This document shows, in pieces, positions 13,801-29,787 of a stretch of DNA of 64,000 nt; position 1 is the stretch's first letter; each line of letters begins with the position of its first letter. The notes beneath the pieces are model-generated. The model had not been told where the DNA came from. It did no database searches and saw only the letters and a list, made by a program, of their open reading frames with translations. The position numbers and the translations under genes were made by a program. Source of the stretch: Mesorhizobium loti (lineage in GTDB: Bacteria; Pseudomonadota; Alphaproteobacteria; Rhizobiales; Rhizobiaceae); assembly GCF_013170705.1 (NCBI RefSeq), contig NZ_CP033334.1, positions 2,953,501-3,017,500 of the forward strand, read 5' to 3'.

Positions 13801-14081
13801 CCGTTAAGCTACGGGACCGCAGCGGTGTCATGTCCCCTGGATTGCGTAAGCCCGAAATGATCTCATCGGAAGAAGTTGCCCAAGGAGCCATTGAGGTGGT
13901 GAGATCCAATCTCGGCGCGACGGAGGACGAAATTGGACCGAGCATCGCGAGGATGCTGGGCTTCAAAGCCACAAGCGCTCAATTGAGGCAATTGATTTCA
14001 ACGGCGGTCGCCGCTGCTGTCGCCAAGGGATCGTTGCGGTACCAAGACGGGCTGCTGATAGACGGCGCAAACGCTCAGTAA
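10881..14081 (+). CDS. SF1 helicase-nuclease, C-terminal 1066 residues
   Basis: In the same frame as 8514-10871, resuming three codons after the amber stop; an apparent GTG start at 10881 has no good ribosome site. It holds helicase motif II 'LLVMDEASQIQP', III 'VVVGDERQLPPTTFF', IV 'RWHYRSRHQSLIAVSNSQFY', V 'LENVQGDERDVIIISV' and VI 'RLNVLISRAK'. A PD-(D/E)XK-like nuclease of the MTES_1575/Vsr type follows ('EQVANALIERGYQVHAQVGI', 'FIDLAVADP', 'LGIECDGAEYH'). The C-terminus matches a DUF3320-type domain ('IHLDEVVSRIRLAWGLQRAG'). Helicases of this build occur in defence islands and next to SbcCD-like genes. Without readthrough the split halves may be inactive, because Walker A and Walker B are separated. 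Confidence 0.8.
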   Translation: MRLLDVLMKGQAAASRVRDGDTFGRSAFGADWRREKSSSAPLLALVEWMRTLRGLGSEPRLIAGRMAERSEAGARALRVRKVIDIGRPMIEGFWNDLGHLAPSMLGDVASAERASLQLMEAKARSVARADEASRELLAIVPDQLSHRLELVRRLGALQTLAQEIDAAHALGTSAFGSSWLGRGSNWAALTQAELWLKNNSALRHLVARLPDRAEIAKSARATREATQAAALQFRAVAKDLKADASSLFGVGDFSEVVISELIARLQGWVEHHEQLSKWVGYEERSDTARKAGLGQLIDGLANGQIPTAFARSVFDMAYYEKMLTAMAYREPELGRFDGELHSRAVRDFADLDRQRIKASAIEVVTAHHRKIPPRDGGAGPVGLLRSEMARKRGHMPVRQLMLKAGPAVQALKPVFMMSPLSVAQFLSPGRMSFDLLVMDEASQIQPVDALGAIARANQVVVVGDERQLPPTTFFAKMTGSQSEDDDGEGAQVADIESILGLFTARGLPQRMLRWHYRSRHQSLIAVSNSQFYENRLFIVPSPYTQEAGMGLRFHHVPDGVFDSGGTGTNPIEARAVAEAIIRHAKSNPQESLGVATFSVSQRRAIQDELEALRRLNTDTEDFFHAHPSEPFFVKNLENVQGDERDVIIISVAYAKNAQGHMAMRFGPLGSEGGERRLNVLISRAKRACEVYASITDEDIDLERGKGKGVFAFKLFLHYARTGRISLAQTTTREMDSIFEEQVANALIERGYQVHAQVGIAGFFIDLAVADPERPGRYLLGIECDGAEYHSSRSARDRDRLRQAVLEDHGWIIHRIWSADWFQRPREQLERTVAAIDAATRELAERAELGNQRSRAAAVRVVTVDRGNVTEIGLETANGTAAPDRTYSEAHIQRPPGQFELHETPTGLLAGLVEQVVAAETPIHLDEVVSRIRLAWGLQRAGGRIQDAIERGLIVAEARGAVARRGDFCFKPGAPVKLRDRSGVMSPGLRKPEMISSEEVAQGAIEVVRSNLGATEDEIGPSIARMLGFKATSAQLRQLISTAVAAAVAKGSLRYQDGLLIDGANAQ

Positions 14082-14170
14082 GAAATCAGCGAAATGTGAG
14101 GGTGGGCTTAATCGCCCTCGCTAAATCAGAGCGAACCTGGGACGAACCCTGTCCCTTGGCTGGAGACTGA

Positions 14171-14248
14171 ATGGCATTTCGATTTGTTCACACGGCCGAC
14201 ACCCATCTCGATTCACCGCTGCGTTTGTTCAGCGAGTTGTTACGCTAG
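14171..14248 (+). pseudogene. Stub of an SbcD/YhaO-like exonuclease gene
   Basis: MAFRFVHTADTHLDSPLR is the start of metallophosphoesterase DNA-repair exonucleases (motif I D-x-H, normally HTADIHLDSPL). After about 18 codons the similarity ends and a stop follows at 14246-14248. It sits 89 bases after the helicase gene, so the ancestral locus probably paired the helicase with an SbcCD-like nuclease that has since been deleted (inference). Confidence 0.65.
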
Positions 14249-14482
14249 TTTCGATGAGTGAGTTGACGCCAGAGAATCCAAATTGCGAATCGCATTTTTT
14301 CAGCTGAACAACTAGACTTGCTCACCCGTAGGTGGGCCGGTAGAAGTAAATGATGCTGTTCTCGCCAATGGATGGTCCGCCGAAGATGGGTACGAATCTC
14401 CGTGTATACAGTACCCATCCGGTGAAGACCGTAGACGTGCGTATCCGGCGGCCATGAGCACCTGAGCACCGCGGTGCTGGGG
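14249..14482. other. Unassigned junction region
   Basis: No gene recognised. It lies between the truncated SbcD-like start and a 77-residue ORF on the other strand and is probably the scar of the deletion. Confidence 0.4.
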
Positions 14483-14716
14483 TCAAGCTTTCGATAGGGA
14501 GACGCGATGATATTCTTCGAGGAGGAGTTTGACCTCCTCGATACCTTCATCGGTGAAGGCCAAGATCCCGTCGTCATCGATGGCCCCGTACACCCAGATG
14601 ACGCCGTCCTCGGGCTCGAGACCGAGCGTCAGGTCCTGGATGAGCTCTTCGCTGACGCCGAGGTCCCTGGCGACACGGTCGACGGTGTAGACGTGATGCA
14701 CCTTATCGCGCTGCAT
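14483..14716 (-). CDS. 77-residue acidic hypothetical protein
   Basis: Starts MQRDKVHHVYTVDRVARDLG. A possible helix-turn-helix ('DRVARDLGVSEELIQDLTLG') is followed by an acidic tail ('DDDGILAFTDEGIEEVKLLLEE'). It overlaps the tail of the truncated IS110 gene. No ribosome site is obvious. It resembles small regulator-like proteins, but I do not recognise the family. Confidence 0.5.
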   Translation of the reverse strand: MQRDKVHHVYTVDRVARDLGVSEELIQDLTLGLEPEDGVIWVYGAIDDDGILAFTDEGIEEVKLLLEEYHRVSLSKA

Positions 14717-15437
14717 GATCAGGCCGCCGCTGGTTGGGAATGTCGCCGACGGCTGCCACGATACTCAGTGCCACCGTGACATCCACGCCGGTGATCGTCA
14801 TCAGCCGCTTGACCCGTGGTTCCTGGAGGGCCGTCTTTGCGAGGCTTTTGTCAACCTGTGCAAGTTCTCCGCCAAGGCGATCGAGTTCACCGGCATGGCG
14901 AAGGACAACACGGCGCTGATCCTCGGCGAGCGGCTGAGCCTCCAGCCAAGTCCTGCCGCGCTTTGAGAACAGGGTGCCTTTGTAGGGCGGGATCAGGTTG
15001 GCGTGCAGAACCGAATGGATCCGGTTCTTGAGACGGGTCATCTGGGAGACGAGCTGCGTTCGTTCCGCTACCACGCGACGACGCGTCTCGGTTTCCTCAT
15101 CCGGCATCCAGACTTCAGGCAGAAAGCCGCTCGCGTGGAGCTTGGCCAGCACAGCCGCGTCGATCTTGTCGGTCTTGACCTTGGCCCAGGCGATGGCCCG
15201 AACCAGGATCGGATTGGCTATGACCACCCTGCCCACAAAGGGCGAGAGCAACCGGACGATCGCGCTCGTATTGCCTGTCGCTTCGATGACGATCTCGTCA
15301 TCCGGCTTGAGCTTCGTGGCGAACTGCAACAGGCGGCTGCGTTCGAGATCGATCCTCCCGGCATCCCGGATTTTGCCTTTCTCCAAGATCGCCATTTGAG
15401 CGAATGATCGGTGGACATCAAGGGCAATGCTTCTCAT
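14703..15437 (-). pseudogene. IS110-family transposase, C-terminus missing
   Basis: AAAGGAG 6 bases before ATG 15437. The N-terminal DEDD/RuvC-like domain is intact (D in 'SIALDVHRSF', E in 'EIVIEATGNTSA', 'AKVKTDKIDAAVLAKL' with two Asp). The second domain begins ('RLMTITGVDVTVALSIVAAV') but similarity ends near 14745, after about 230 residues, and the frame runs out in unrelated sequence. The C-terminal serine-containing half is lost, so it should be inactive. Confidence 0.8.
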
Positions 15438-15679
15438 TCCCGGCTCCTTTCCAGGGTCAGCAACCATGGGAGTCGGCGGGCTTCACGACAACTACGGATC
15501 CGCGCTCGCAGCGCAACCGGGCAAGTCGAAGGGGGCGGCCCGATAACAACTCGAACTCTCAGTTCATCAGGTACTTCGGCCTGCCCGCCATGCGTGCTCC
15601 CGACACCCCAATCCCGGTAGGTGGACGGTAGTCGATCCATCCGTGCAAGAAAATACGGATTGGCGCGTCGCGCCTATTC
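15438..15679. other. Junction between IS110 and IS6 remnants
   Basis: No gene seen; IS110 upstream region and the join to the IS6 fragment. Confidence 0.35.
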
Positions 15680-15937
15680 ATGCCTGATAACAACCGGATC
15701 GAGCAGGGACATCGGCGGATCAAGCGCCGTGTTCGGCCGATGCTCGGCTTCAAATCTCCCGCAGCCGCAAGCATCATCCTCGACGGCATCGAAATGCTTC
15801 ACATGATGCGCAAACGACAGGCGAGATTCGCCTTCAACCCAAATCCGTCATTGGCCGAGCAGTTCGATATCCTCGCCGCCGCATAAGCACCGCCCGCCAT
15901 CTCTTCTTGCAGTTCAACAAAAATTTGCTACAGAACC
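15680..15937 (+). mobile_element. IS6-family remnant: transposase C-terminus and right end
   Basis: 15680-15886 encodes 'MPDNNRIEQGHRRIKRRVRP' through 'LAEQFDILAAA', the last 68 residues of an IS6/IS26-type transposase including the catalytic Glu region. The element end follows at about 15937: the minus strand reads GGTTCTGTAGCAAA, matching the IS6-type terminal repeat. The N-terminal two thirds are missing. Confidence 0.7.
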
Positions 15938-16142
15938 ACACCAGAACCGATGCTACTGCATCCCGCGCCTGTCAGCGCAGGAAATCCCATCCTACCGGTC
16001 GACCATGGATTTTTGCGCCCTAAAGTGCCGATTCCCTGATATCCAACGCCGAAGTTTTCCCGGCCAGTATTTGATTGCAAATCTCCTCGAGTGTGGACGT
16101 TGCAAACATTTAAGAAGCCTTTTCTAAAGAATTTACCGGTTC

Positions 16143-17828
16143 TCAATATCGATAAGCGGAATTCATCGAATCAATGGGGTTACCGCTCAAGAGCTGGCCG
16201 CCACTGCTGCGGATAACAGCACATGCGGCATTCAAGCCCGTTTGTACCGCGCCCTCGACCCACCCGCCGGTAAAGGAGCATCCACATCCTGCGAGATACA
16301 AGCCCGTGTCTTCTTCCGGTCTTTTTGCGGTAGCGAATTGGAAAAATAACCGTTCTGAATAGATGTCTTCACCAGGATAATTGAGCTTGAAGGCACCTAC
16401 TGAATATGGATCCATCAGCCAATCGTGCTGCAGGACATGACGTTCATAGTCACCGTTAGCCGGGACTAGATGACGGGCGAAATCAGGGGAAATGGTGGCC
16501 AGATCATCGACCAGACGCTGGCACCGTTCCTTTTTGTCCAGAATGGAAAGCATTTTGTTAGCATCATCTTCCCATGTATAACTTAACAGCACAACGCCCT
16601 TACCATCCGGATCATCTGGCTGATAGTCTAGGCAGTAAACCCCTCTGGCAAGGCCATCTGACAAGATGGTTGTCGGCGTGCCCTTTTTTAACCAGAACTT
16701 GTTTTCCGTCAGCATAAACAGCTTGGAAGAGCCGGTAAGGTGAGTTTCTCTGACCGCTCGCAAAACTTCGTTAGTAAGAAAGGTTCCATCCGCCGTGAGA
16801 CGATGGGCCAGCTCCATAGCTCGATTGCTGGTAGTGACGATGACGCGGTCAAAAGGCACGACCTGCCCTGCTGCGCATGTCACGAGAATCTGACCGCCCT
16901 GCTTGTAAATACGGCTTACATGACCGTAGCGGACACGCTGCCGCAAACTCACACCGTTAAGCTCCTGTTCAGCCAACCGGTTCACCAACAGGGAGATCCC
17001 TCCCATAATCATGCGCTGATCGTCCTCGTACCCGTTAATTACAAGACGCAGTATCTCAGTAAACGCGGCTTGGTACACAGGTAAAAAGCCTCCAGATCCA
17101 ATTCCCAGCGATCCGAAAAGCTCAAAATCTTCCGGCCTTTTCCAAGGTACGCGCCCTGGTGGCTGCGGTCCGGTAAAGATGGTGACGAGGGCCGAATAGA
17201 AGGAGATGTCGCGAAACGAATCTAGCCAGGCCTGCCATGCGTCACGAGCTTGGTCAAAGCGATGCGACCGAAGCAAAGTTGTGATCTTCGCCGGTGCGGG
17301 CAGTTGAATCCCTTCGTGCACGTAACCGTCGCTTATCAAAGCCTGCCATCCTTGATGAACGCGCCTGAACAGTGGCGGCGGAGACTCGCCGGCCTGCCAT
17401 AAATGACGCGCACCTCGATAGTGCACCTCGGTATCCACGATGCCCGGATCGGGGAAGGAAGCTGCGGTATCTATCCTCAATTTGTCCAGATAATGGAACA
17501 GGCAGGTTGCGCTGGAAGGAAAGCGCATAGCGCCCATCTCGGCAATGAGATGCGGTTCGCGCGGGTCGAAGATTTGTGACCAAGCCCGCCCACCCATACG
17601 ATCCCGCGCCTCAAATAGCACGATGTCCGTTATTCCGGCGCGCAAAAGTTCAGTCGCCGCCACCAAGCCACTGATGCCGGCGCCCACAATGCCAACCCGC
17701 GGGCGCCGGCTGTTTTGAGCAAAGCTCCCAATACCACCTTCAGACTCGCTCAACCGCAAGAACGGTCCATAATCATACAGAAGATCGATACTCGGCAATG
17801 AATTTCTTGCGATGGTATTGTTCAGCAT
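16143..17828 (-). CDS. iaaM: Tryptophan 2-monooxygenase (indole-3-acetamide synthesis)
   Basis: 561 residues, very similar along its whole length to what I recall of Pseudomonas savastanoi IaaM (about 557 residues). Landmarks: 'SIDLLYDYGPFL' near the N-terminus, FAD-binding 'VGIVGAGISGLVAATELLRA', 'EARDRMGGRAWS', 'AEMGAMRFP', 'PEDFELFGSLGIGSGGFLPV', 'RETHLTGSSKLF' and C-terminal 'GGWVEGAVQTGLNAACAV'. It oxidatively decarboxylates L-tryptophan to indole-3-acetamide, the first step of the IAM auxin route. GGAGAG lies upstream of ATG 17828. The usual partner iaaH is not in this window. The gene sits between IS6 and IS256 remnants and an AT-rich upstream region, which points to horizontal transfer. 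Confidence 0.92.
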   Translation of the reverse strand: MLNNTIARNSLPSIDLLYDYGPFLRLSESEGGIGSFAQNSRRPRVGIVGAGISGLVAATELLRAGITDIVLFEARDRMGGRAWSQIFDPREPHLIAEMGAMRFPSSATCLFHYLDKLRIDTAASFPDPGIVDTEVHYRGARHLWQAGESPPPLFRRVHQGWQALISDGYVHEGIQLPAPAKITTLLRSHRFDQARDAWQAWLDSFRDISFYSALVTIFTGPQPPGRVPWKRPEDFELFGSLGIGSGGFLPVYQAAFTEILRLVINGYEDDQRMIMGGISLLVNRLAEQELNGVSLRQRVRYGHVSRIYKQGGQILVTCAAGQVVPFDRVIVTTSNRAMELAHRLTADGTFLTNEVLRAVRETHLTGSSKLFMLTENKFWLKKGTPTTILSDGLARGVYCLDYQPDDPDGKGVVLLSYTWEDDANKMLSILDKKERCQRLVDDLATISPDFARHLVPANGDYERHVLQHDWLMDPYSVGAFKLNYPGEDIYSERLFFQFATAKRPEEDTGLYLAGCGCSFTGGWVEGAVQTGLNAACAVIRSSGGQLLSGNPIDSMNSAYRY

Positions 17829-18288
17829 ACCGCTCTCCGGTGATAGCTATATTTCTTGAGATCTAGTGTGGCTGCCCTCAGAGTGCCTCCTTCGTTAGAT
17901 TGGAACGCCGCGGCCTCAGCATAACAATTGCTGCGCATCGGAGACGCAAGTAACTGTGTATATTAGTAGAAAGCTTGCCAGATTCTGTACTTAGTAATAA
18001 CAATCACTGCGAACGCACCTCGCTAGTGGAAGACGATTTACGGATATTTATTTGGAGCATAATGGATTGCTCAGTCGTAATCCATCGCGTTCCTCTTATA
18101 TAGGGGAGTATCGCTCCCGTCACCGAGCATGTTACAAATACCCTGGCGCGATATCTTCTATTAGTGCTTGCTAATGATCCAAATTATCTATTTCTTTCTA
18201 TCACTCAATTCCCACTGATTGAATTAATATTGCGTTTCATATGTAATATAATATGAGCTATGCTGGAATTGGGGCGACGAGGCTGATC
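17829..18288. other. AT-rich intergenic region upstream of iaaM
   Basis: About 460 bases visibly richer in A+T than its surroundings, with no convincing gene. It should contain the iaaM promoter. I looked for a nod box, a sigma-54 site and a tts box on the iaaM strand and saw none that fit. Confidence 0.5.
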
Positions 18289-18468
18289 AAGCGGCGCACC
18301 AAGGGCTCGCTATCCTCGAAAACCGCCAGGCTGATGGTCTTCAAGCTGATCATGGCCGCGGCCAGGACGTGGCGACGATTGAAAGGACAAAATCAGTTGC
18401 CGAAACTCATCGCAGTTGCCAGGTTCCTGGACGGAATCGAGGTCATCGAAACGAAGCCGCAGAGCGCA
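18289..18468 (+). pseudogene. IS256-family transposase C-terminal piece, inverted
   Basis: The plus strand encodes 'KGSLSSKTARLMVFKLIMAA', 'TWRRLKGQNQLPKLI' and 'FLDGIEVIETKPQSA', the C-terminal end of IS256/Mutator-type transposases. The rest of the same transposase (18461-18851) is on the minus strand. This roughly 175-base piece has therefore been flipped in place, or comes from a second copy in opposite orientation. Confidence 0.7.
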
Positions 18469-18851
18469 CCGTGCGATGGCGAACGGTGGCAAAAACGCTC
18501 TCGATGGGATTGGAGGTTCGCAGATGATCCCAATGTTCGGCGGGGAAGTCGTAGAACGCCAGCAAGGCATTCTGATCTTTCGTCAGGCAGTTGACCGCCT
18601 TGGGGTATTTCGCGCCATATTTGTCGACAAAGACGGCAATCGCCACCTCGGCTGAAGCCGGTTGGGAGCGGAAAAGATTTCGCGCAGGTCCGTCTTCACG
18701 GCGGCCTGGACAGATTTCGGCACCTTGTTCAGTACATTGGCGGTCTTGTGCACCCAGCAGCGCTGTTGCTTGGTGCCGGGAAGCAGCTCGTCGAGAGCCT
18801 TCCAGAAGCCAAGTGCACCGTCGCCAACGGCGATCTCGGGCGCGATAGTCC
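18461..18851 (-). pseudogene. IS256-family transposase middle fragment
   Basis: Minus strand: 'APEIAVGDGALGFWKALDEL', 'QQRCWVHKTANVLNKVP', then after a 1-base deletion near 18660 'AEVAIAVFVDKYGAKYPKAV' and 'FPAEHWDHLRTSNPIES'. These include the second catalytic Asp region and the C/DH motif of the DDE domain. At 18852 the sequence switches to hxsB on the other strand; the preceding transposase codons are found at 24415-24476. Confidence 0.75.
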
Positions 18852-20178
18852 AGCCACGGCTTCCTGGACCGGTACGCCACCGACAACCTGTCCCCCGCCG
18901 ATGAGACCTTCCTGAACGAGGGAAATCACGGCTTCGACAAGGAGTTCGACCTTCACTGGACATCGTTCGCCTACAGGTGGGCGGGGCGCCAGTCGAGGCC
19001 GACGAGAATGAACTACGTCATCCTCGTGCCGACGCTCCGCTGCAATCTTGCCTGCGGCTATTGCTAGGTTTCCCGCGCTCCCGAAACGGCCGGCGGGTTC
19101 GATTGGTCGCCCGAAACCCTCGCTGGTGTCCTTTCGTTTCTCGACACTCTGGAAGGTCCCGACATCAAAATCGAATTCCAGGGTGGCGAGCCTCTGCTTC
19201 GGGTCGACATACTGGAAGCCGTCCGCGATTTCTGCCGGGAAAAGTTCTCCCAATGCCAGTTCGTCGTCTGCACCAACCTGCAGCGACTGGATACGCGCGA
19301 ATGGGCGTTCCTGGATGCCGACGACACCGTCATCAGCACGTCCCTTGACGGAGACCGGGTAACGCACGAGCGCCAGCGCACGCATGGAAGCGAGGTCACC
19401 GACGCCTTCTTTCGAAATCTCGAGGCGGCCGTTTCCCGCTATCCGAAGGGCAAGATCTCGGCATTGCCGACGGTGGACGTCGCCAACCCACCGGACTTCG
19501 AGGCGCTGCTGGACAACTATGAACGCTATGGGAGTCCGCTCGGTTTACCTTCGCCCGATAAACCACCAAGGAATCGCGCGAAAGCTTCAGCAGGGCGACA
19601 ATCTCCTTGCGCGTTGGAATCGCCTTCATTGCGAATTCATCGACCTGCTGATCGCTCGCAACCATCGCACTGGGCGCTTTATGGAGGAGTACTACTTCAG
19701 CCAATGCCTGAAGCGCGTCCTTCGCTTCGACGCCGATAACCACGTCGACATACGCAACCCGAACTTCTTCGCCTCCGACTATGTCGTGATAGATCACGAC
19801 GGGCGTTTCTATCCGACCGACGAAGCCCGAATGCTGTCCAGGATCGGCCGCATCGATCTCAGCATCGGCGATGTCGGGACGGGAATCGACTGGGCAAAGG
19901 TCGACGTTCTCAATTCCGGTGCATTCAACCACTTCGATCCGGATTGCATCCACTGCGCCTACCAACCGTTCTGCGGCACTGACGTGATCGATGATCTCTC
20001 CCGGTGTGGCCGGATCGACGTGCCGCGGCCTGAAACATGGTTCTGCGGCCGGCACTTGTCGCTCTTCGACAAAATCTTTGAGATTCTCTACCGAAACGAC
20101 GAGCCGACGCGCGCTTCGTTGGCCGCTTGGCTCGGCGTTGCCGGCTGGAACGGCAATATAGCGCCGGTCCACCCATGA
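18852..20178 (+). pseudogene. hxsB: Radical-SAM maturase HxsB, 3' part, with amber codon and frameshift
   Basis: Starts 'SHGFLDRYATDNLSPADETF', then the radical-SAM cluster motif C-x3-C-x2-C in 'LRCNLACGYC' (19035-19064). The next codon is TAG (19065-19067), where HxsB proteins have Gln ('YCQVSR'), then 'VSRAPETAGGFDWSPETL', 'IEFQGGEPLLR' and 'STSLDGDRVTHERQRT'. One extra G at 19530-19532 shifts frame at 'NYERYG/VRSVYLRPINHQG'. The C-terminus has a SPASM-like cysteine set ('CIHCAYQPFCGTD'). HxsB is one of two radical-SAM proteins of the His-Xaa-Ser system. The first 31 codons are on the opposite strand at 24470-24563. Confidence 0.8.
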
Positions 20179-20194
20179 TACCCTACGCATCAAG

Positions 20195-21279
20195 GTGGAA
20201 GCAAACGCTGACCGGCTTTTCGTGGTCGGGCTTCGGTCGTTTGAGCTCTCGCTCTGCGGGCAAGGGACTGAACAACTGAATCCTTTCGACGCTGCGCTGG
20301 AGCGCGTCGGCCCGAAAGGGGCTGATTACGTCAGCGAGGGCGGTCCGATACGAATCATTGGCATCGATCCTTCCAAGGTCGATGGAGACGTGTTGCTCGT
20401 GAACCCGCGGCGCGGAACTGCGGACCGCCTTATCCGTAGTGATTCGCGACACAACACCTTCCTAGTTACGGAGCGGTGCGACCAGGTTTGCCTAATGTGC
20501 TCCCAGCCGCCCAAGAGCCACCACGTCGACCTATTCCCGTATTTCGAGACTGCGGCATTGCTTGCGCCGGAAGGCGTGACGATCGGGATCTCCGGTGGGG
20601 GAGCCGACACTTTTCAAAACTCAACTGTTCCGATTTCTAGAAAGGGTGCTTTTGGCGCGCCCGGACCTTTCCTTCCACGTCCTGACCAATGGCCAGCATT
20701 TCGATCTGGATGACTGGGAGGCAATGAGTCGTATCGATCGGGGAAGGGTGGTCTGGGGGATCCCTCTCTATTCCTGCGATCCCGCTGTTCATGACGAGAT
20801 CGTCGGGAAGGCCGGCGCGCACGCCCAGCTGCTCGAGAACCTGGCGCTCATGTGCCGCCTGGGTGCCCAGGTAGAGCTCCGCACCGTTCTGATGCGTCCG
20901 AATGCGGATGGGCTGCCTCTACTGGCAAGGTTCATCATCTCCACTCTGCCGTTCATCCGGACATGGGCAGTGCAGATGGAGAACATCGGCTTCGGTCGAA
21001 TGAACTGGAGGACGCTCTTCTACGACAGTTCGGAAGGCTTCGATGTCGTCGGCCGTTCCATCGATCTGGTGCGGAGCCGGGGAATAGATGCCGGCTCTAC
21101 AATTTCCCGCTCTGCACGGTACCGGAGCCATACCGCCATCTGGCGCCGGCTACGATCTCCGACTGGAAGCGTGCCTACCGAGAGGAGTGTGACGGATGCT
21201 CGTTGAAGGCTCGGTGCGGGGGATTTTTCGAGTGGCATCCAGCTAACCACGGATACAGCAATTTGGGGCTATCCAATGA
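20195..21279 (+). pseudogene. hxsC: Radical-SAM maturase HxsC with frameshifts
   Basis: Begins near GTG 20195 (an ATG at 20175 overlapping the hxsB stop is the alternative). 'RHNTFLVTERCDQVCLMCSQ' carries the C-x3-C-x2-C radical-SAM motif, typical of HxsC together with 'SQPPKSHH'. An extra G near 20597-20601 interrupts 'GISGGEPTLFKTQLF'. The middle ('FHVLTNGQHFDLDDWEAM') is in a second frame. A missing C near 21093 returns to the first frame at 'RLYNFPLCTVPEPYRHLAPA', then 'CDGCSLKARCGGFFEW'. The last codons before hxsA may hold a third slip. Partner of HxsB in maturing the HxsA repeat protein; non-functional as it stands unless the indels are read errors. Confidence 0.8.
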
Positions 21280-21773
21280 AGAAGCGACTTTTCGCGATAC
21301 CGTTGCTACTCGCTGCGGGATTCTTGCCTGCCAATGCACAGGCGCTGCCGACCAAGCCAACGTTGGACGGCGATCTCGGAAACACGAAATCTCTGTTCGA
21401 TATTTTTAAGCTCGACCACCTATATACCTTGGCGGGACATCGCAGCCACAGCAGTCACAGTTCTCACTCGAGCCACAGGTCGTCGTCGGGCGGCTATTCT
21501 TACACCCCGCCAGCGCCGAGCCAAGCCGCTCCGCTGTATAACGCGCCGTCCACGCTTGCCCCGATCTATCAACCGCCCGCTATCGCGCCAGCGCCGTCAC
21601 CGCTGAAGACACTCCCAGGCAATTCCTACAAGTTCAGGGACATCGTCCAGGAGGTCCAGTTCGCGTTGCTCGCGTTCGGCTACTACAGCGAGGAGATAGA
21701 CGGCGAGATGAATCCGGAGCTGAGGGCCGGGCTACTGCGCATGCAGCGATATGTCTGTATATGGCGTGACTGA
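21276..21773 (+). CDS. hxsA: His-Xaa-Ser repeat protein HxsA, 3' truncated
   Basis: Signal peptide MKKRLFAIPLLLAAGFLPAN, then a mature chain with the diagnostic run 'HRSHSSHSSHSSHRSSSGG' (about residues 50-70), a Pro/Ala-rich linker, and a peptidoglycan-binding-like tail ('IVQEVQFALLAFGYYSEEID') that breaks off at 'LLRMQR'. The last codons come from a fused double-glycine peptide gene. HxsA is the presumed substrate of HxsB/HxsC in a system known only from genomics; its chemistry is undetermined. Follows hxsC directly. Confidence 0.8.
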   Translation: MKKRLFAIPLLLAAGFLPANAQALPTKPTLDGDLGNTKSLFDIFKLDHLYTLAGHRSHSSHSSHSSHRSSSGGYSYTPPAPSQAAPLYNAPSTLAPIYQPPAIAPAPSPLKTLPGNSYKFRDIVQEVQFALLAFGYYSEEIDGEMNPELRAGLLRMQRYVCIWRD

Positions 21774-22068
21774 GCTAACTCGGGAAGAGGCATCCTCAAC
21801 TTCTGGCGGGTGGCTTCTCTGGTTATTGTTTGGAGCTTTTAGTGTCGCAGTTATAATCGCTGTCATTCTAGAACTAACGACGAAGAAGTCATGGGCCTAC
21901 TACTGGTCACTATCTGGGCTAGGGAAAAGTATCTTACTTTCCCCTGACGTATCCAGCTACCTGGAGAGACTATCCACGGCCAGAACGATCTTTGGTCGTC
22001 TTTGTCGGTTTTGTCGAGTTCGTGACACTGTGTTGTTCGCCCCGATCTGCCGCCGCGCTCACAACTAA
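21751..22068 (+). CDS. Double-glycine-leader peptide 1, fused to the end of hxsA
   Basis: Reads MSVYGVTELTREEASSTSGG followed by a hydrophobic stretch ('WLLWLLFGAFSVAVIIAVIL'), i.e. a leader ending Gly-Gly and a membrane-active core, like class II bacteriocin precursors. It overlaps the last codons of truncated hxsA in another frame, and its own first codons and ribosome site appear lost. The long tail after residue 50 is probably not native. The leader is shared with the two peptides downstream. Confidence 0.55.
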   Translation: MSVYGVTELTREEASSTSGGWLLWLLFGAFSVAVIIAVILELTTKKSWAYYWSLSGLGKSILLSPDVSSYLERLSTARTIFGRLCRFCRVRDTVLFAPICRRAHN

Positions 22069-22093
22069 GCCGTTTTGCGGTTTCCTGTGCAGT

Positions 22094-22109
22094 TGGCACG
22101 ACCTTTGAT
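22094..22109 (+). promoter_or_regulatory. Sigma-54-type promoter upstream of peptide 2
   Basis: TGGCAC-N5-TTGAT, one base off the -24/-12 consensus (TGGCAC-N5-TTGCW). About 82 bases before ATG 22191. The surrounding CTGTGCAGTTGGCACGA is nearly repeated at 26420-26436. Confidence 0.65.
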
Positions 22110-22190
22110 GATCTCGTTGTGCGGCGGCACACGCTGCTACGGTGCATTATTGCTTCATCCTGTGATTTCGAGCTCTAGGAAAGGAGAAAA

Positions 22191-22355
22191 ATGAAGACCA
22201 ATATGCAAGCCTATGGTGTGACCGAGTTAACGCGCGAAGAAGCATGTGCAACGTCCGGAGGGTGGTGGTTCTGGGCAGCGGTGGCAGGATTTGGCGCAGT
22301 TGCTGCGTTAGGACTGGCTATAGCAGCCTTGGAAAGATATCTTAAGCATCATTAA
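22191..22355 (+). CDS. Double-glycine-leader peptide 2 (bacteriocin-like), 54 residues
   Basis: AGGAG site directly upstream. Leader MKTNMQAYGVTELTREEACA ends 'TSGG' at residues 21-24; the core of 30 residues is 'WWFWAAVAGFGAVAALGLAI' plus a basic end 'RYLKHH'. This is the form of class II/GG-leader precursors processed by C39 peptidase transporters. A C39 domain and an HlyD-type protein lie just downstream, supporting export by that route. The best preserved of three related peptide genes. Confidence 0.7.
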   Translation: MKTNMQAYGVTELTREEACATSGGWWFWAAVAGFGAVAALGLAIAALERYLKHH

Positions 22356-22608
22356 GGCGATCGACAATATTCGCAACTACCTGGGGTTGATCTCGGTCAC
22401 CTCCGGGCAGCTGTCGCCTGGTTTGTCGGCGGCGTGATGTACGGCCGACGCACTCTCAGTTGGGTTGGGAACAAGCTACAGAACGCCTTTTTGGCCTCTA
22501 TTTGCGTGGTCGGCATGGGTATTGCCGCCATTAGGCGCGGGGGAGTGCTGCCAAGCGGCAGGATGATCGCCGACATTCATCGTTGAATTTTTTTAAAAAA
22601 GAAAAACG
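22356..22608. other. Intergenic stretch between peptide genes
   Basis: No intact gene recognised; likely decayed sequence. Confidence 0.35.
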
Positions 22609-23958
22609 ATGAATACCGACATATCAGTATACGGCTTAACCGAGTCAACTCGAGAAGCGGCATCATCAACTTCCGGTGGTCTTTGGTTCATATCCTCAGT
22701 TTCTGCTGTAGTATTTCGTTGGTGTAGTACGCGCCGAAGACATGCTGGACAATTGGCAGCATCATGGATCAATATCACTGTAACCAGCGAGATCGGCATC
22801 ATTATCTCACTTATTCCTGAACTCGCCAACTACACCGCAGAGAGCATCCTCTCTCGCCGATCAGGGCGATCTTTGGCCATCTACAAAGTGGTTGTGCTCT
22901 CTGTGGTTGCGGCATTGTTGTCGCTGCCACTTATTACCATATCGGTGTCTGTCCAAAGTGCCGGTATCATTCGCCCCACCGTCGAGAAGACGCCCTTGGT
23001 CGCGCCCGTCTCCGGACGCATCTCCCGCATCCTTGCCGCTGAAAACGATCTGGTTGCCCAGGGGCAAGAGATCCTCGCCCTCGATGATGGGGTGGTTGAG
23101 GAAAAGCTCAGGGCGCTTACAGGCGATATTCGCGCAAAGAGCGATTTTGCCCGTGACCTCGAAACCCTGATCTCCTCCGGCACGCAAGCCAAGGACCCGA
23201 TCCGCCTCTTGACCGAGACCGCCACGGCCGAGCGCGCCCATTTCCTGAACCTTGTGCGGGAGAACCAGTATGACCGCGGTCATGCGGCTGCGGAACTTCA
23301 GCGTGCCAAGCGACTGCTCTCCGCTGCTGTAGCACCGGCAAAGGCCGTTGAGGAAAAGGCCTTCGCACTTCAGAACGTTGAGATCCAGGGCGAGATCCTC
23401 GCCCGGCGCAAATTCGCCGAATGGAACCAGCAGCTGTCCGACGTTAACCTGCGCCTTGAGGAACTCACGGCCGCCTTGCATCAGCTTGAGAGCGAACGGG
23501 ACCTGACTCTCATTCGAGCCCCCGTATCAGGCGCTCTCGAGCAATTCTCGGGCCTCACTTCCAGCAGCTACGTCCAGGCCGGGCAAACCGTCGCTTGGGT
23601 TTCGCCGGATGGTGAACTGGTGGCGGAAATCTTCGTTTCTCCCAACGACATCGGCTTTGTGCGCCCCGGCCAGTCGGTGCGTCTGCAAGTGGATGCCTTC
23701 AACTACAATCAATGGGGTGTCATTGACGCGACGGTGCTCGACGTGGCGCACGACTTCACGCTGCACGACGGGAGCCCGGCCTTCAAGGTCCGCTGCGCGC
23801 TCTCTCGCCGCCATCTCGCCCTCAAGCGCGGGGTCATCGGTAACCTGAAGAAAGGCATGACCGTGCGGGCCCGCTTCCTCCTGGGCGACCGCACTGTCCT
23901 GGAACTCCTGTACAACGAGGTCGACGATTGGCTCAATCCGCTCCTGGCGAGCCACTGA
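22609..23958 (+). CDS. HlyD-family export protein with a GG-leader peptide fused at its N-terminus
   Basis: 449 residues. Residues 1-24 (MNTDISVYGLTESTREAASS then TSGG) copy the leader of the neighbouring peptides. After about residue 60 a typical membrane-fusion protein begins ('IPELANYTAESILSRR'): one transmembrane helix ('VVVLSVVAALLSLPLITISV'), the biotinyl/lipoyl-like hairpin ('EKTPLVAPVSGRISRILAAE'), a coiled-coil arm ('AAAELQRAKRLLSAAVAP') and the second half hairpin ('LTLIRAPVSGALEQFSGL'). It would link the inner-membrane C39 ABC exporter to the outer membrane. The fusion probably arose by a small deletion between a third peptide gene and hlyD; the native start should lie near 22800. 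Confidence 0.8.
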   Translation: MNTDISVYGLTESTREAASSTSGGLWFISSVSAVVFRWCSTRRRHAGQLAASWINITVTSEIGIIISLIPELANYTAESILSRRSGRSLAIYKVVVLSVVAALLSLPLITISVSVQSAGIIRPTVEKTPLVAPVSGRISRILAAENDLVAQGQEILALDDGVVEEKLRALTGDIRAKSDFARDLETLISSGTQAKDPIRLLTETATAERAHFLNLVRENQYDRGHAAAELQRAKRLLSAAVAPAKAVEEKAFALQNVEIQGEILARRKFAEWNQQLSDVNLRLEELTAALHQLESERDLTLIRAPVSGALEQFSGLTSSSYVQAGQTVAWVSPDGELVAEIFVSPNDIGFVRPGQSVRLQVDAFNYNQWGVIDATVLDVAHDFTLHDGSPAFKVRCALSRRHLALKRGVIGNLKKGMTVRARFLLGDRTVLELLYNEVDDWLNPLLASH

Positions 23959-23990
23959 TTCTCCATTTTCCAAACAGTCAGCGAGCCTCT

Positions 23991-24414
23991 ATGTCGAGCA
24001 AGATCATCAAGTTCAAGCAGCGCGACATCACCGATTGCGGTGCCGCCAGCCTTGCTTCTGTCGCGGCCTTCTATGGCTACAAGCTGCCATTGTCGCGTAT
24101 CCGACAGTATGCCTCGACCGGCCGCTCCGGCACCACTGTGCTGGGCCTCATGGAAGCGGCCCGGAAGCTGGGCTTCGTTGCCAAGGGGGTAAAGGGTGGC
24201 TTCGACAGCCTATACAAGATCCCCAAGCCCGCCATCGCGCACGTCGTCGTCAGCGAGGTTCTGCATCACTTCGTCGTAGTCCAGGAGATCAACGCCAGGT
24301 GGGTCATCGTCATGGACCCAGCCTATGGTGAAATCCGCAAGCTGGCGCACGAGGAATTCAAAAAGCAATGGACTGGCGCCCTGGTGCTCCTGGTTCCCGC
24401 AGACACCTTCAAGC
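23991..24414 (+). pseudogene. C39 peptidase domain of a bacteriocin-type ABC exporter, truncated
   Basis: MSSKIIKFKQRDITDCGAAS: the catalytic Cys lies in 'DITDCGAAS', the His region in 'AIAHVVVSEVLHHFVVVQEI' and the Asp in 'VIVMDPAYGEIRKL'. About 140 residues, i.e. only the peptidase domain; the membrane and ATPase domains are absent because an IS256 fragment begins near 24415. It would cleave GG leaders such as those at 21751, 22191 and 22609. Confidence 0.8.
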
Positions 24415-24476
24415 GCCGCGACGAGACAGCGCACAGAGCTGGTGCGAGCTGCTGGTCGACGTCAAGCGGCGTGGCT
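24415..24476 (+). pseudogene. IS256-family transposase fragment beyond the inversion
   Basis: The plus strand encodes 'DSAQSWCELLVDVKRRG', the codons that directly precede 'WTIAPEIAVGDG' at 18851. The join is at CGTGGCT (24470-24476). On its left it is fused to the C39 peptidase gene. Confidence 0.7.
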
Positions 24477-24563
24477 TGCAGACTTGAAGAACTCGCCTGC
24501 GTCGTCGGAGAACAGCACCGAACCGTCCGACATCTCGCGGAACTTCAATGGCCATACGTTCAT
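24470..24563 (-). pseudogene. hxsB: HxsB, 5' part, separated by inversion
   Basis: ATG at 24563 overlaps the stop of the HxsD-like gene (ATGA). It encodes MNVWPLKFREMSDGSVLFSD and 'DAGEFFKSASH', the usual HxsB N-terminus, then is cut at AGCCACG. Joining this to 18852 gives '...FFKSASHGFLDRYATD...' without a break. Confidence 0.75.
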
Positions 24564-24796
24564 CGGCGTGTCACCGCGGCGACCAGCGCTTCACGCGTGG
24601 ACAAGGTTTCCGCGTATATTTTCTCGCGGTAGACGGCGTACAAAATATCTTTTCGAAGCTGGTCTTCAATACCGGCTGATGAGTCTATTGATATCGTACC
24701 GCCTTTCCACTCAAGGCGGCAGTTTGGGTAGAGGGCCTGCAGCCGAAGCATCGCGGCATCGGCGTATTTCTCGAACTGCGGCGGGATCTTCACCAC
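24560..24796 (-). CDS. hxsD: HxsD-like protein of the His-Xaa-Ser system
   Basis: 78 residues from GTG 24796. The C-terminal half ('EDQLRKDILYAVYREKIYAE' then 'TLSTREALVAA') resembles the end of HxsD (pattern ...LLNDYxLRExIxxETxxxRExLxA). Position supports this: its stop overlaps the start of hxsB (ATGA at 24560-24563). The N-terminal half is less familiar, so the call rests partly on context. Confidence 0.5.
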   Translation of the reverse strand: MVKIPPQFEKYADAAMLRLQALYPNCRLEWKGGTISIDSSAGIEDQLRKDILYAVYREKIYAETLSTREALVAAVTRR

Positions 24797-24806
24797 ACAT
24801 TCGCAT

Positions 24807-24960
24807 TCAGTAGTGTTCGAAAATTTCGTTCATGTCCCCACCCAGATCGATAATGCGCGGAGAGACATGAACAATCAACGCATATTTGCTTTTCTTTCTG
24901 TCTTTCCACTCTATCCACTCGCTAAAATACTGTATCGTCTCTCCGGCTTCGATTTGTCCT
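24807..24960 (-). CDS. Short ORF upstream of hxsD-like gene
   Basis: The C-terminal part of an open frame ending 'YFSEWIEWKDRKKSKYALIV' and 'GGDMNEIFEHY'. It looks coding and stops 10 bases before hxsD, but no start codon is convincing; the start given is approximate and the gene may be 5' damaged. Family unknown. Confidence 0.4.
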
Positions 24961-25017
24961 GCGTTCAGACATGGGACCAATCTTCGCCGAGCTGCACCCA
25001 ACCGTGCTCGCGGCGCG

Positions 25018-26101
25018 TCAACGATCCTTGTCCGCCCTGGAAGCCGCGTTCTTCCGATCCTTGAGAAGTCGCGAACGAAGCTGGCGGGCCTCGACGACAA
25101 ACTCATACGGGAGCACCTCAAACACTTCCTTGAGGCTGACCGGATCGTTGCGCGGCCACAGATAATAAGGATCGACGATTTCAATGATTTTTACCAAGCG
25201 AGCCCACTGGATCGGCTTCGGCGAATCGAGCAGCCGACCGCGATGCAGTAGCGCAGACGTTTCAAGGCGACGTTGACGGAGCGCCACAAGAGCGGCATCG
25301 CATACGGCCGGCAGAGTTTCGGCTGCGAGCTGGTCAAGCCAAGGTACAACCACAGCCGAAGGAATGACCGCGGCTACCTGAGCCGCCAAGACTCGGTCCT
25401 TTGAGCGCTGCGAGTTCGCCAGCGGAGCGAGCAGCGCTGCCAGTCTGTCGCCCCCCAGATGTACGCGAAGGCGCCGCTCGAGCTGCAGGCGAAGGGAAGG
25501 CTTCGCGTCCGGGTAGCGGTTCAGGAGTTCCGGGGCGGCGCTATCCGGGTCGATCTCAAGCATCAGGTCGGCGGCAGCTGGTACCTTGTGGCGCGTGAGC
25601 AAGCGTTGCGCGGCGAAATAGGCCTCTTCCGGATCCTCGCTTCGCAAATAGCCAATGGCCCCGATCGCGTTGCCGCGGTCAAATCCCGAGTGGCGGTAGG
25701 CCGCGCGCAGCAGCTCGTCTCGGGCCCGGCCGTCGCCCGCCTCGGCAAGCAGTCGCAACAGCCCGCCATCGACGATCAGGTGTCCATTCGCTCGCGAGCG
25801 CCGCAGGAAGCTGACGACCGCAGCCCTGCCCTCTGGATGGTCGATGAGTGGACGCAGGTAACCTTGGTGCGACCATGATGAACTCCCAATGTCCTGCTCT
25901 GGCAGCCAGTCAATAACGGCGCGCCGGGCATCTGCATCACGTTTCGCGGAAATGGCCTATTGCCTCTACGAGCGCTGCGCTCGAGGACGGCATTATTCCG
26001 ATTACCTGTTGTGGCCACTGATCGAGCAGGAAGTTGTGAGCAGACTGACCGGCGAGTGTAAAGCAGATGGTTCGCGAAGTTGCCTCGAAGACCAGCGACA
26101 T
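25018..26101 (-). pseudogene. HEAT-repeat-like protein, frameshifted
   Basis: ATG 26101 opens MSLVFEATSRTICFTLAGQS and 'SSAALVEAIGHFRE'; one extra A near 25945-25948 shifts the frame to 'RDADARRAVIDWLPEQDIGS'. The rest is open to 25018. About 360 residues of repeated helical units ('GGLLRLLAEAGDGRARDELL', 'NAIGAIGYLRSEDPEEAYFA', 'AAQVAAVIPSAVVVPWLDQL'), resembling HEAT/ARM repeats. Same strand and direction as the HxsD-like gene and the hxsB start, so it was probably the first gene of the Hxs operon. Role unknown; perhaps a scaffold. Confidence 0.6.
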
Positions 26102-26428
26102 CGCCGGCTATTTGATTGGCTGGTTATTCATTTCCCCTCGGACCTCGTCCCATATCGGCGACGCCGCCGAGCGAGCGCTGCCGCGACTGCGTTTCCACCG
26201 TTTGTTCGATCAGTCCCACGGAGATTGCTTCCAACCTTCATGAACGGCATCCACGAGCGCTGCGGCTAAATCTAGGATATCGATCTCGCTCATCGGGGTC
26301 GAGAGCGCGCCAGAGCAATTCGGCGTCATCAGAAAACCCCGTTCCAGCATTCACGGTCGGCGCCACCACCACCTTAGCCGCTGAACGAGAATGCATAATG
26401 GCCTTTTTTCTGAAGCTTCCTGCGCAGT

Positions 26429-26444
26429 TGGCACGAGTCTTGAT
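26429..26444 (+). promoter_or_regulatory. Second sigma-54-type promoter
   Basis: TGGCAC-N5-TTGAT, with the flank TTCCTGCGCAGTTGGCACGA nearly identical to that at 22081-22101. 78 bases before ATG 26522. It points away from the HEAT-like gene. Confidence 0.65.
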
Positions 26445-26521
26445 GTTCCCATTGCCCGGCGGCGATCTGCCTTCCGACAGTCGACCTTGACTGATCTGCA
26501 TGTTCTATAAGGGAGAAAACG

Positions 26522-26605
26522 ATGAATACGGCGGACTACTCTTTGAAGGTAACCGGCACGATTACGCCCGAGACGCTGACTGCGCTAAGGATAGAGGCCA
26601 GATGA
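26522..26605 (+). CDS. 27-residue ORF under the sigma-54 promoter
   Basis: GGGAGAAAACG then ATG; MNTADYSLKVTGTITPETLT and seven more residues. The start MNT and the promoter resemble those of the GG-peptides, but there is no Gly-Gly core; it may be a truncated leader peptide. Small size makes this tentative. Confidence 0.35.
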   Translation: MNTADYSLKVTGTITPETLTALRIEAR

Positions 26606-26635
26606 CATGTTGGTCGCAATAGAACGTGGGCAGGT

Positions 26636-26911
26636 CTATTGCGAAACCGTGAACCCACACTGCTTCTGTTCTATCTCAATCTGCTTCGTAATGCGAATGT
26701 CGTCCTGCGCGTAGGAAATTGCCGGCCTGAGTATGCAGAAGCTGACCGTCCGCTTGCGTGCCCATTTCCGCCGTTCTAGACCCTGTCTCCGAACGTTCGC
26801 GAACGAGGTTAGCTGCGGTCGGCTGTGTGGCGTCGCGGGAGCATACGGGACGATACGGGAAGCTTTCAGATTTTCGCCCACGAAAAACTCAACAAAATCA
26901 ACGATTTTCAT
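26636..26911 (-). CDS. 91-residue hypothetical protein
   Basis: GGAGGGCGA before ATG 26911 gives a good start. Begins MKIVDFVEFFVGENLKASRI and ends 'KQCGFTVSQ'. No membrane helix or known motif. Between the decayed Hxs region and xfp. Tentative. Confidence 0.4.
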   Translation of the reverse strand: MKIVDFVEFFVGENLKASRIVPYAPATPHSRPQLTSFANVRRQGLERRKWARKRTVSFCILRPAISYAQDDIRITKQIEIEQKQCGFTVSQ

Positions 26912-27312
26912 TCGCCCTCCGGGCCCACCATAACCATTGATTTTGTTGTTGAAAATTGCCCGCTTCCGTCGGCATTCTGAATGCCCTCCGGTACGCGTTG
27001 CGGGCGGTGCGCGCGCAGCCCTCCGCACGAGCGGAACACCTGGCCACACCCTAACCTTGATTGGGCTCCGTCAGATGTCGTCCAGGAGCTAAGCCGGCCG
27101 CTGGTCATCCGGTTTGCGGTGGATCAAAGCGTGCCCGTTCCGGCGCTACTACAGATGTCGCGAACAACATCTATCGCAAGTCCTTCAGTGTGTGCGGCCG
27201 ATTGCCCTGAACCAAAGAGCGCGGGAAGCGTTTGTGCTCATTCACTGCAGGTCGATGGCACGGGCCCATGTCGCGGTACGGTGAGATGCACCAAGAGGCA
27301 ATGGAGCCAGAC
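26912..27312. other. Upstream region of xfp
   Basis: No gene supported. A weak FixK-like site TTGCG-GTGG-ATCAA lies at 27113-27126 (two mismatches), about 190 bases before the phosphoketolase start. Confidence 0.4.
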
Positions 27313-29736
27313 ATGACCCAACACACCTCTCCAGTCGTCCAATCCAGCCAGCTTTCCGAGCAGGAATTGCATGACATCGACGCCTATTGGCGTGCTGCCA
27401 ACTATCTGACGATCGGCCAGATCTACCTGCTCGACAATCCGTTGCTGCGCGAACCGTTGCGGCTGGAGCACGTCAAGCCGCGATTGCTCGGCCATTGGGG
27501 AACGTCGCCGGGATTGAGTTTCATCTACGCGCATCTCAACCGTGTCATCCGCCTCACGGACACGAATGTCATCTACATCTGCGGTCCCGGACACGGCGGT
27601 CCGGCGATGGTGGCAAACACCTACCTGGAGGGGACTTACAGCGAATCCAATCCCGACATTGCGATGGACGAGCAAGGGATGCGCAAACTGTTCCGACAGT
27701 TCTCGTTCCCCGGCGGCGTCCCGAGCCATGCAGCACCCGATGTGCCCGGTTCTATCCATGAGGGCGGCGAGTTGGGCTATTCGCTTTCGCACGCCTATGG
27801 CGCCGCCTTCGACAATCCCGACCTTGTGGTCGCCTGCGTCGTTGGTGACGGCGAGGCTGAAACTGGGCCGCTTTCCGCCGCCTGGCATTCCAACAAATTC
27901 CTCAACCCGGCGCGCGACGGGGCGGTCCTGCCGATCCTGCATCTGAACGGCTACAAGATCGCCAATCCAACGATCCTTGCCCGAATTCCCGAAGACGAAT
28001 TGCGCGCGCTGTTTATCGGCTACGGCTACGAACCGCTGTTCGTGGAAGGGCACGATCCGGCGCTGATGCATCAGCGGATGGCGAGCGTGCTCGAGGATGC
28101 GTTCGATCGGATCAAGGCTATCCAGCATGCCGCGCGCAACGGCTCCGCCGCGACGGCGTTACGACCAAAGTGGCCGATGATCGTGTTGCGCAGCCCCAAG
28201 GGCTGGACCGGTCCGAAAGAGGTCGACGGGCTGAAGACCGAGGGCTTCTGGCGCTCGCACCAGGTTCCCTTGTCAGGCCTCGCGGAAAACCCAGCGCATC
28301 TGAAGATGCTTGAGGAATGGCTGAAAAGCTACCGACCGGAAGAATTGTTCGACACCGCCGGCGCTCCTGTCGCCTCGATCCGCGCCACGGCACCCCAGGC
28401 GACGAAACGAATGAGTGCAAACCCGCACGCCAATGGCGGCCTGCTGCGCAGGTCTCTCGAACTGCCCGGGTTGCAAGATCACGCCATTGCGCTTGAGCGC
28501 CCCGGCGCCGTCAAGGCCGAGTCCACGCGGGTCATGGGCAGTTTCCTGCGCGATGTCATGCAGTTGAACGAGGCCATGAAGAACTTCCGGATCGTGGGCC
28601 CGGATGAGACTGCCTCGAACCGTCTTCAGGACGTGTTCGAAGTGACCGAGCGCGGCTGGATGGAAAAGATTCTGCCCGAAGACGTTCACCTCGGGCGCGA
28701 GGGCAGGGTTCTCGAAATCCTCTCCGAGCACACCTGCCAGGGTTGGCTCGAAGGCTACCTGCTCACCGGGCGCCACGGTCTCTTTTCCTGCTACGAGGCG
28801 TTCATCCACATCGTCGATTCCATGTTCAACCAGCATGCGAAATGGCTCGATGCCTGCCGCGCCGTCCCTTGGCGGCGGCCGATCGCATCGCTGAACTATC
28901 TGTTGTCCAGCCATGTCTGGCATCAGGAGCACAATGGCTTCAGCCATCAGGATCCGGGATTCATCGACGTGGCCCTCAACAAGAAGGCCGACATCGTGCG
29001 GGTCTACCTGCCCCCGGACGCCAACACCTTGCTGTGCGTGACCGAGCATGTGCTGCAGACCTGGAACCGCATCAACGTCATCGTCGCCGGCAAGCCGCCA
29101 TCCTGGCAGTGGCTGTCGATGGACAAGGCAATCGTTCACTGCCGGGCAGGAATCGGCATCTGGGACTGGGCGTCAACGGACGATGGGGCTGAGCCCGACG
29201 TCGTGATGGCTTGTGCGGGCGATGTCCCGACCCTCGAAACGCTGGCGGCAGTGCAGATCCTCAGGCAACTGGTTCCCGATCTCAGGATCAGAGTGGTCAA
29301 TATCGTCGATCTGATGACTCTTCAGCCAAAGGAATATCATCCGCACGGGCTGTCGGATCGCGAGTTCGATGCGCTGTTCACAGCCGACAAGCCGGTCATC
29401 TTTGCCTATCATGGCTATCCCTGGACGATCCATCGCCTGACCTATCGACGCACCAACCACGACAACATCCATGTGCGCGGCTACAATGAGGAGGGCACGA
29501 CAACCACGCCCTTCGACATGACCGTACTGAACGGTCTCGACCGCTTTCATATCGTCCAAAGCGTCGTCGATTGGGTTCCACGACTAAAGAGCGTGCGGGT
29601 CGGCATCAAGCAGGCCATGGACAGCAAACTGCTTGAACACCGCGCCTATATTCGCGCCCATGGGCAGGATATGCCGGAAATCCTTGACTGGAAGTGGGAA
29701 CAGGATGCCGATGCGGGGCCGAAGCGTCCGGATTGA
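27313..29736 (+). CDS. xfp: Xylulose-5-phosphate/fructose-6-phosphate phosphoketolase
   Basis: 807 residues from ATG 27313, chosen for the GGAG 6 bases upstream; an ATG at 27301 and a longer form exist. Thiamine-diphosphate enzyme splitting X5P (or F6P) with phosphate to acetyl phosphate plus a sugar phosphate. Signatures: '[17 protein letters not shown]', '[18 protein letters not shown]', '[18 protein letters not shown]', ThDP site '[20 protein letters not shown]', '[20 protein letters not shown]' and 'WRQEHNG'-type '[18 protein letters not shown]'. Acetate kinase follows 51 bases later, so the pair turns pentose phosphate into acetate and ATP, useful when respiration is limited. Confidence 0.95.
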
Positions 29737-29787
29737 GCGGACGCCCGCCCGCAAGCGCATGGGAACGGCAACATATCGGATGGCTTC

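Follow-up and report, generated by a model that had tools for sequence, protein, structure and literature searches.

A probable record of two overlapping inversions without repeats in decaying island DNA of Mesorhizobium loti

A 64,000-nucleotide stretch of the Mesorhizobium loti chromosome (contig NZ_CP033334.1, positions 2,953,501 to 3,017,500), hereafter the window and numbered from its first letter, holds interleaved remnants of an hxsDBCA cluster, of a unit of GG-leader peptide genes, hlyD and a C39 peptidase/ABC transporter gene, and of an IS256 insertion sequence (IS). Their order and strands were best explained by two inversions that overlapped, made use of no repeats and left a scar in a genomic-island region undergoing decay, with illegitimate end joining as the most likely origin; we place the probability of this reading at about 0.78. 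An earlier note on this DNA had described one inversion of 5.6 kb. Judged from comparison with relatives, there are two overlapping inversions (about 4.9 and 5.6 kb), not one, and four genes are left split. Relatives were sought by searching window 17900-25800 against 146 genomes of the genus, including the genome itself, of which 94 gave some match. The present layout, in which F1 to F3 denote rearranged fragments and L numbers denote homologous loci, is as follows.

18255..18297, minus strand: right (3') end of the IS256 remnant, matched by six of the seven fetched IS256 copies.
18294..18467, plus strand: IS256 segment of 174 bp with GCGC at each end, inverted in place; flipped relative to its neighbours in 7/7 fetched copies (in L041 over 132 bp).
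18465..18846, minus strand: middle part of the IS256 transposase (Transposase_mut; PF00872, E 1.9e-11 for 18583-18849), about 82-90% identical to IS256 copies.
18847..21746, plus strand: fragment F3, with hxsB from codon 28, hxsC, and hxsA to about codon 157; 93.2% identical to L027 8874-11777 (Mesorhizobium tamadayense), where the homologue is contiguous with the hxsB start and the hxsA end.
21276..21746, plus strand: hxsA lacking its C-terminal end (TIGR03979, 108.2 bits), fused at 21746 to GG-peptide sequence.
21747..24427, plus strand: part of F1, with GG-leader peptide genes, hlyD and the N-terminal part of the C39 peptidase/ABC transporter; 91.7% identical to L028 and 89.9% to L029.
24428..24482, plus strand: rest of F1, an internal IS256 fragment ancestrally joined to 18846; it adjoins the 18846 end in six of the seven fetched IS256 copies.
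24481..25938, minus strand: part of F2, with hxsB codons 1-28, an open reading frame (ORF) at the hxsD position and the C-terminal remnant of a large P-loop/HEAT-like protein; 95.7% identical to L027 11774-13230.
25939..26411, no strand assigned: part of F2, in which other loci survive as remnants marked by deletions and match separate places in L027 and other genomes.
26412..26529, plus strand: end of F2, where the GG-peptide gene that resumes at 21747 has its first codons (MNT) and upstream region; in L028 and L029, the two relatives fetched, the homologue runs straight on into that of 21747.
26530..26934, plus strand: C-terminal end of hxsA and downstream sequence; 96.6% identical to L027 8874-8470, directly after the 21746 homologue.

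The 5.6-kb inversion had been recognized from the two genes that it splits, and this part of the earlier note was borne out. For hxsB, the minus strand carries the N-terminal part, which ends near 24481, and the plus strand carries the remainder, which starts at 18847; the IS256 transposase is divided between 24428-24482 (plus) and the sequence running leftwards from 18846 (minus). A search of relatives for the uninverted hxsB, which the note had proposed, was successful; the two pieces adjoin in at least seven genomes among the matches listed (G139, G048, G117, G101, G111, G091 and G023), where 18847-21746 adjoins the part right of 24481 in a relative orientation opposite to that of the window. 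HxsB was also continuous across the codon-28 point in 19 of the 21 named hxs loci, the remaining two matching without that part of the protein. Such adjacency was likewise observed for the IS256 pieces in the six copies mentioned above (in L033 to within 7 bp), and the seventh copy, L030, has no match to the parts flanking the break point. The actual breaks were located at 18846/18847 and 24480-24482, which moves the hxsB break from codon 31, as first placed, to codon 28.

A second reciprocal pair of joins, at 21746/21747 and 26529/26530, had been overlooked. Homology to hxs ends at window 21746 and resumes at 26530 in seven listed genomes, over at least the first 69 bp, and two genomes (G068 and G070, which hold L028 and L029) carry a homologue of 26412-26529 followed directly by the GG-peptide/hlyD/C39 unit of 21747-24427. 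At one join of this pair hxsA, broken at about codon 157, runs into a GG-peptide gene that lacks its first three codons; at the other, the start of the GG-peptide gene meets the hxsA end, which is present in 18 of the 21 hxs loci and missing from the other matches found. Relatives therefore keep four adjacencies that are lost in the window, namely hxsB start to rest, hxsA to its C-terminal end, GG-peptide start to rest, and the two IS256 pieces to each other, and these come from separate homologues (hxs clusters, GG-peptide clusters and IS256 copies). When the locus was divided into the left flank with IS256 to 18846, A (18847-21746), B with the IS fragment (21747-24482), C-D (24481-26529) and the right flank from 26530, the four adjacencies (IS-IS, B-D, C-A and A-right flank) gave a single linear walk: left flank, B reversed, C-D reversed, A, right flank. 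The reversal distance from this ancestral order to the window is 2, with one shortest path consisting of an inversion of about 4949 bp and then one of about 5636 bp.

The following course would account for the present order. The stretch would have begun with the IS256 remnant fused to C39, hlyD and the GG-peptide genes on the minus strand, followed by a junk spacer and then by the remnant of the large P-loop protein, the hxsD-position ORF, hxsB, hxsC and hxsA on the plus strand. The first inversion, of about 4.9 kb, would have broken the GG-peptide gene after codon 3 and hxsA at codon 157, turning the hxs cluster and making two chimeras. The second, of about 5.6 kb, would have broken IS256 and hxsB at codon 28, leading to the order seen now. 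Both would most likely reflect double-strand breaks wrongly rejoined by Ku/LigD end joining. The 174 bp inverted in place within the IS256 remnant are a third local event.

The four inversion joins share 0, 2, 0 and 0-2 bp, of which the last varies with the relative aligned to the GG-peptide sequence at the 26529 join (no base in common when L028 is used, 2 with L029), and the hxsB scar contains a duplication of up to 4 bp. The genome itself encodes two Ku genes above cut-off and two matches above cut-off to LigD-type (non-homologous end joining) ligases, each within about 1.5 kb of a Ku gene; a third ligase match falls below cut-off. Joins with little or no homology and the encoded Ku and LigD-type genes were both found, and these features fit end joining without amounting to proof. 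According to the excerpted text of a study of Rhizobium etli (PMC10932983), end joining accounted for 23% of repaired derivatives after an induced break. The window resembles that system in its 0-2 shared bases, its few duplicated bases at joins and its Ku and LigD-type genes, and differs in that the breaks there were induced, whereas two natural inversions and their repair pathway are proposed here. As far as the excerpted accounts of site-specific-recombinase systems of Mesorhizobium go, these also rearrange genome regions through large exchanges, whereas the joins in the window have no common core sequence.

A single event is the strongest of the other explanations, though an unlikely one. 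In this case, the DNA would have been broken through both strands at four places within about 8 kb (at six if the in-place IS256 inversion is counted) all at once, every fragment would have been kept, and religation by Ku/LigD would have rejoined the three fragments in a new order and orientation, similar to a small bacterial chromothripsis. The four breakpoints indeed lie within about 8 kb, each was used once and nearly without loss, a further in-place inversion and deletions lie alongside, and such a scramble is formally as good as two inversions. Against it, two ordinary inversions account fully for the order, no dating ties the joins to one moment, and an earlier origin is conceivable for both the C39/IS256 fusion and the deletions close by.

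Joins created by the assembler are considerably less probable still. Window 22817-24427 is repeated at 99% identity at 6.40 Mb, which is a type of repeat able to mislead assembly; against this, 18200-18851 is single copy and a second copy of hxs was not found in the genome, so that the four inversion joins do not lie at the ends of high-identity repeats, and only the C39/IS256 join at 24427 falls where the 99% repeat stops. The genome consists of a single contig, with 100% completeness and 0.08% contamination.

The earlier note had attributed a single 5.6-kb inversion, splitting one large operon, to recombination between AGCCACG (18852-18858) and CGTGGCT (24470-24476), and this mechanism and the operon are refuted, while the inversion itself stands. 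The inverted match does exist, and the hxsB pieces do adjoin in relatives. Beyond the 7-bp repeat, the hxsB homology runs 5 bp more to 18847 and the IS256 homology 6 bp more to 24482, which indicates that the exchange took place outside the repeat and that the repeat was carried inside the segment. An exchange within matching inverted repeats at both breaks, which would be expected of repeat-mediated or invertase-type inversion, was not found, and no direct or inverted repeats of at least 14 nt pairing the breakpoints were found. The second join pair is also left unexplained, and hlyD/C39 is missing from the fetched flanks in 21/21 hxs loci. Among 17,680 random breakpoint pairs in the region, an inverted match of at least 7 bp within 20 bp inside both ends was obtained in 1.45%, and within 20 bp on either side in 7.3%, which makes the 7-bp match weakly notable at best. 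A phase switch, in which a programmed inversion would reversibly control hxs or the peptide exporter, was likewise judged very improbable and rejected: a coding segment is inverted and a short inverted match lies near both ends, as such a switch would have it, but the exchange lies away from that match, long inverted repeats are absent, a scan of five neighbouring ORFs gave one IS110 transposase and no other recombinase, the genes are also broken by independent lesions (a stop and frameshifts), and no other-genome match among those listed extends across the window joins, apart from a weak overrun of about 17 bases at most.

The reading of two overlapping repeat-free inversions has, in turn, several points to contend with. 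The joins are known from the assembly alone, in which misassembly is formally possible. The GG-peptide adjacency is supported by two relatives only (L028 and L029), and the link from the GG-peptide start through the spacer to hxs was read from the window itself. The relatives compared belong to other species, from which the timing of the events can at best be conjectured. The right flank, at about 27-46 kb, was colinear with G098, G117 and G114 and showed no strand flips along syntenic contigs (12 relatives searched), but this comparison was made at 70-89% identity, at which small inversions would escape. As for the repair route, 0-2 shared bp are compatible with alternative end joining or template switching too, the same R. 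etli excerpt gives homologous recombination as the main route (74%; PMC10932983), and the 7-bp inverted match, which is set 5-6 bp in from each end of the 5.6-kb segment (chance level 1.45%), is a possible hint of a pairing step.

The hxs cluster itself was found to be decayed. The earlier note had stated that flipping the segment restores both reading frames, which holds locally only: in its own frame, the plus-strand part of hxsB meets a stop just past the radical-SAM cysteine motif and a frameshift further on, and hxsC contains several frameshifts. These lesions indicate that the cluster is dead independently of the inversions, and probably no function survives at it. The intact L027 exceeded the family cut-offs for HxsB (TIGR03978, 395.3 bits against 370), HxsC (TIGR03977, 313.5 against 267.9) and HxsA (TIGR03979, 145.6 against 121.65), whereas in the window HxsA scored 108.2 bits against 121.65 and a 70-aa HxsB piece 24.9 against 370. 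The window hxsB and hxsC are, as far as their sequences tell, pseudogenes of the hxs family. The HxsD family model gave no match for the 78-aa window ORF, the 188-aa ORF of L027 or the 80-aa ORF of L094, so that the name is positional only. For hxsB, hxsC and hxsA together, 42 replacement and 62 silent changes were counted on the window branch, and 27 and 52 on that of L027, which suggests mostly constrained evolution with late decay. Among the named hxs loci the closest is that of M. tamadayense DSM 28320, which shares the hxsD-position ORF, hxsB, hxsC, hxsA and a large upstream P-loop protein at 93-97% DNA identity; that cluster is intact and colinear, whereas the window copy is inverted in two parts, split and frameshifted. 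In L027, a 1518-aa P-loop/HEAT-like ORF (12310-16866) lies directly upstream of hxsD, and its C-terminal remnant is located at window 24807-25938. This large protein was seen in 1 of the 21 hxs loci, and Pfam gives it a weak AAA_22 match below cut-off only.

The exporter unit was also compared separately. The earlier note had joined the HEAT-like gene, hxsDBCA, the GG-peptides, hlyD and C39 into one operon, which is contradicted by the finding of hlyD/C39 within the fetched flanks of 0/21 hxs loci (up to 9 kb, fewer at contig ends). A single ancestral hxs-exporter operon was rejected, as the unit stands apart from hxs in G068 and G070, and hlyD/C39 also occurs at 6.40 Mb in this genome. The continuity from hxsA into the GG-peptide sequence is, on the adjacencies described above, a product of the second inversion join. 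Window 22817-24427 is 99.0% identical to the genome's own chromosome at 6403619-6405227, where the copy is open, with hlyD of 393 aa and a C39 peptidase/ABC transporter of 718 aa. Because 21747-22816 is closer to L028 than to that copy, while 22817-24427 follows it, gene conversion between the two hlyD/C39 copies is suggested. The probable conversion tract ends at the C39/IS256 join. An ORF of 449 aa at window 22609-23958 starts with a GG-leader (MNTDISVYGLTE...) and runs into hlyD, and is probably a GG-peptide/hlyD fusion, given the 393-aa HlyD ORF at 6.40 Mb. In a plasmid search, the HlyD/C39 part was present in the best 20 plasmid records, and no record covering 80% of 18.2-26.6 kb was found. 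The window unit is thus similar to the GG-peptide/HlyD/C39-peptidase ABC exporter units of rhizobial genomes and megaplasmids, of which an hlyD/C39 homologue is open at 6.40 Mb and others are present in those records, and differs from them in having only the N-terminal part of C39, a split GG-peptide gene and an IS256 join.

The IS256 remnant is assigned to its family by the PF00872 match and by its right end at 18255, which lies next to an amine-oxidase flank (15941-18253); in four aligned copies the homology stops there and the outer flanks differ. It falls short of a whole element, which would have two ends and a single open transposase frame: the 5' part is gone and the rest consists of four pieces of alternating orientation. 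No copy of the missing 5' part was found in the genome. The opposite orientation of 18294-18467 in all seven fetched copies indicates that these 174 bp were inverted in place; the ends of this segment share 3-4 bp, and the earlier note had overlooked it. At 24427/24428, C39 is joined to internal IS256 sequence with zero shared bases and no IS end, which argues for a fusion or deletion to an internal IS fragment in place of the cut by IS256 that had been described. Simple insertion of IS256 into C39 was rejected on the same join.

Further traces of loss were observed in the spacer. About 1.1 kb of L027 is gone at 25938/25939, after which 25939-25992 matches L027 14358-14411. Next come 25994-26051 and 26048-26357, whose counterparts in other genomes stand at separate places, with some 2.3 kb between them in G073; in the window the two are fused with a 4-bp overlap, which is probably a microhomology deletion. 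A query of 25900-27300 gave matches in 142/146 genomes, many of the listed rows only through the short intergenic repeats at 26650-26935 that are common across the genus. To the left of the locus lie an IS110-type transposase (14706-15467) and a flavin amine oxidase block (15941-18253), the latter sharing 95-96% identity with three other genomes, in which the sequence further out is different; both are regarded as more island fragments. Right of the scar, intact phosphoketolase and acetate kinase genes occupy 27232-31005.

Bacterial inversions are usually attributed to inverted repeats, insertion sequences or invertases. Here, each of the four breakpoints of two overlapping inversions falls within a gene, the joins have hardly any bases in common, and the inversions can be reversed on paper to one ancestral order. 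Literature on hxs (including the relevant parts of PMC9062424), end joining and intragenic inversions, microinversions, Mesorhizobium islands and bacterial chromothripsis-like events gave, at the level of titles and abstract openings, no account of the locus or of a like scramble. Repeat-free, end-joining-like rearrangement is already known, and what is unusual here is the readable history. With the support of independent relatives, the locus offers a clean case from nature of how a rhizobial genomic island was rearranged without repeats, and it carries the caution that rearrangement can create false gene neighbourhoods, in this case an apparent hxs-exporter operon. If the single shattering were true, the locus would amount to chromothripsis in a bacterium, and it could be read owing to the ancestral adjacencies kept by relatives.

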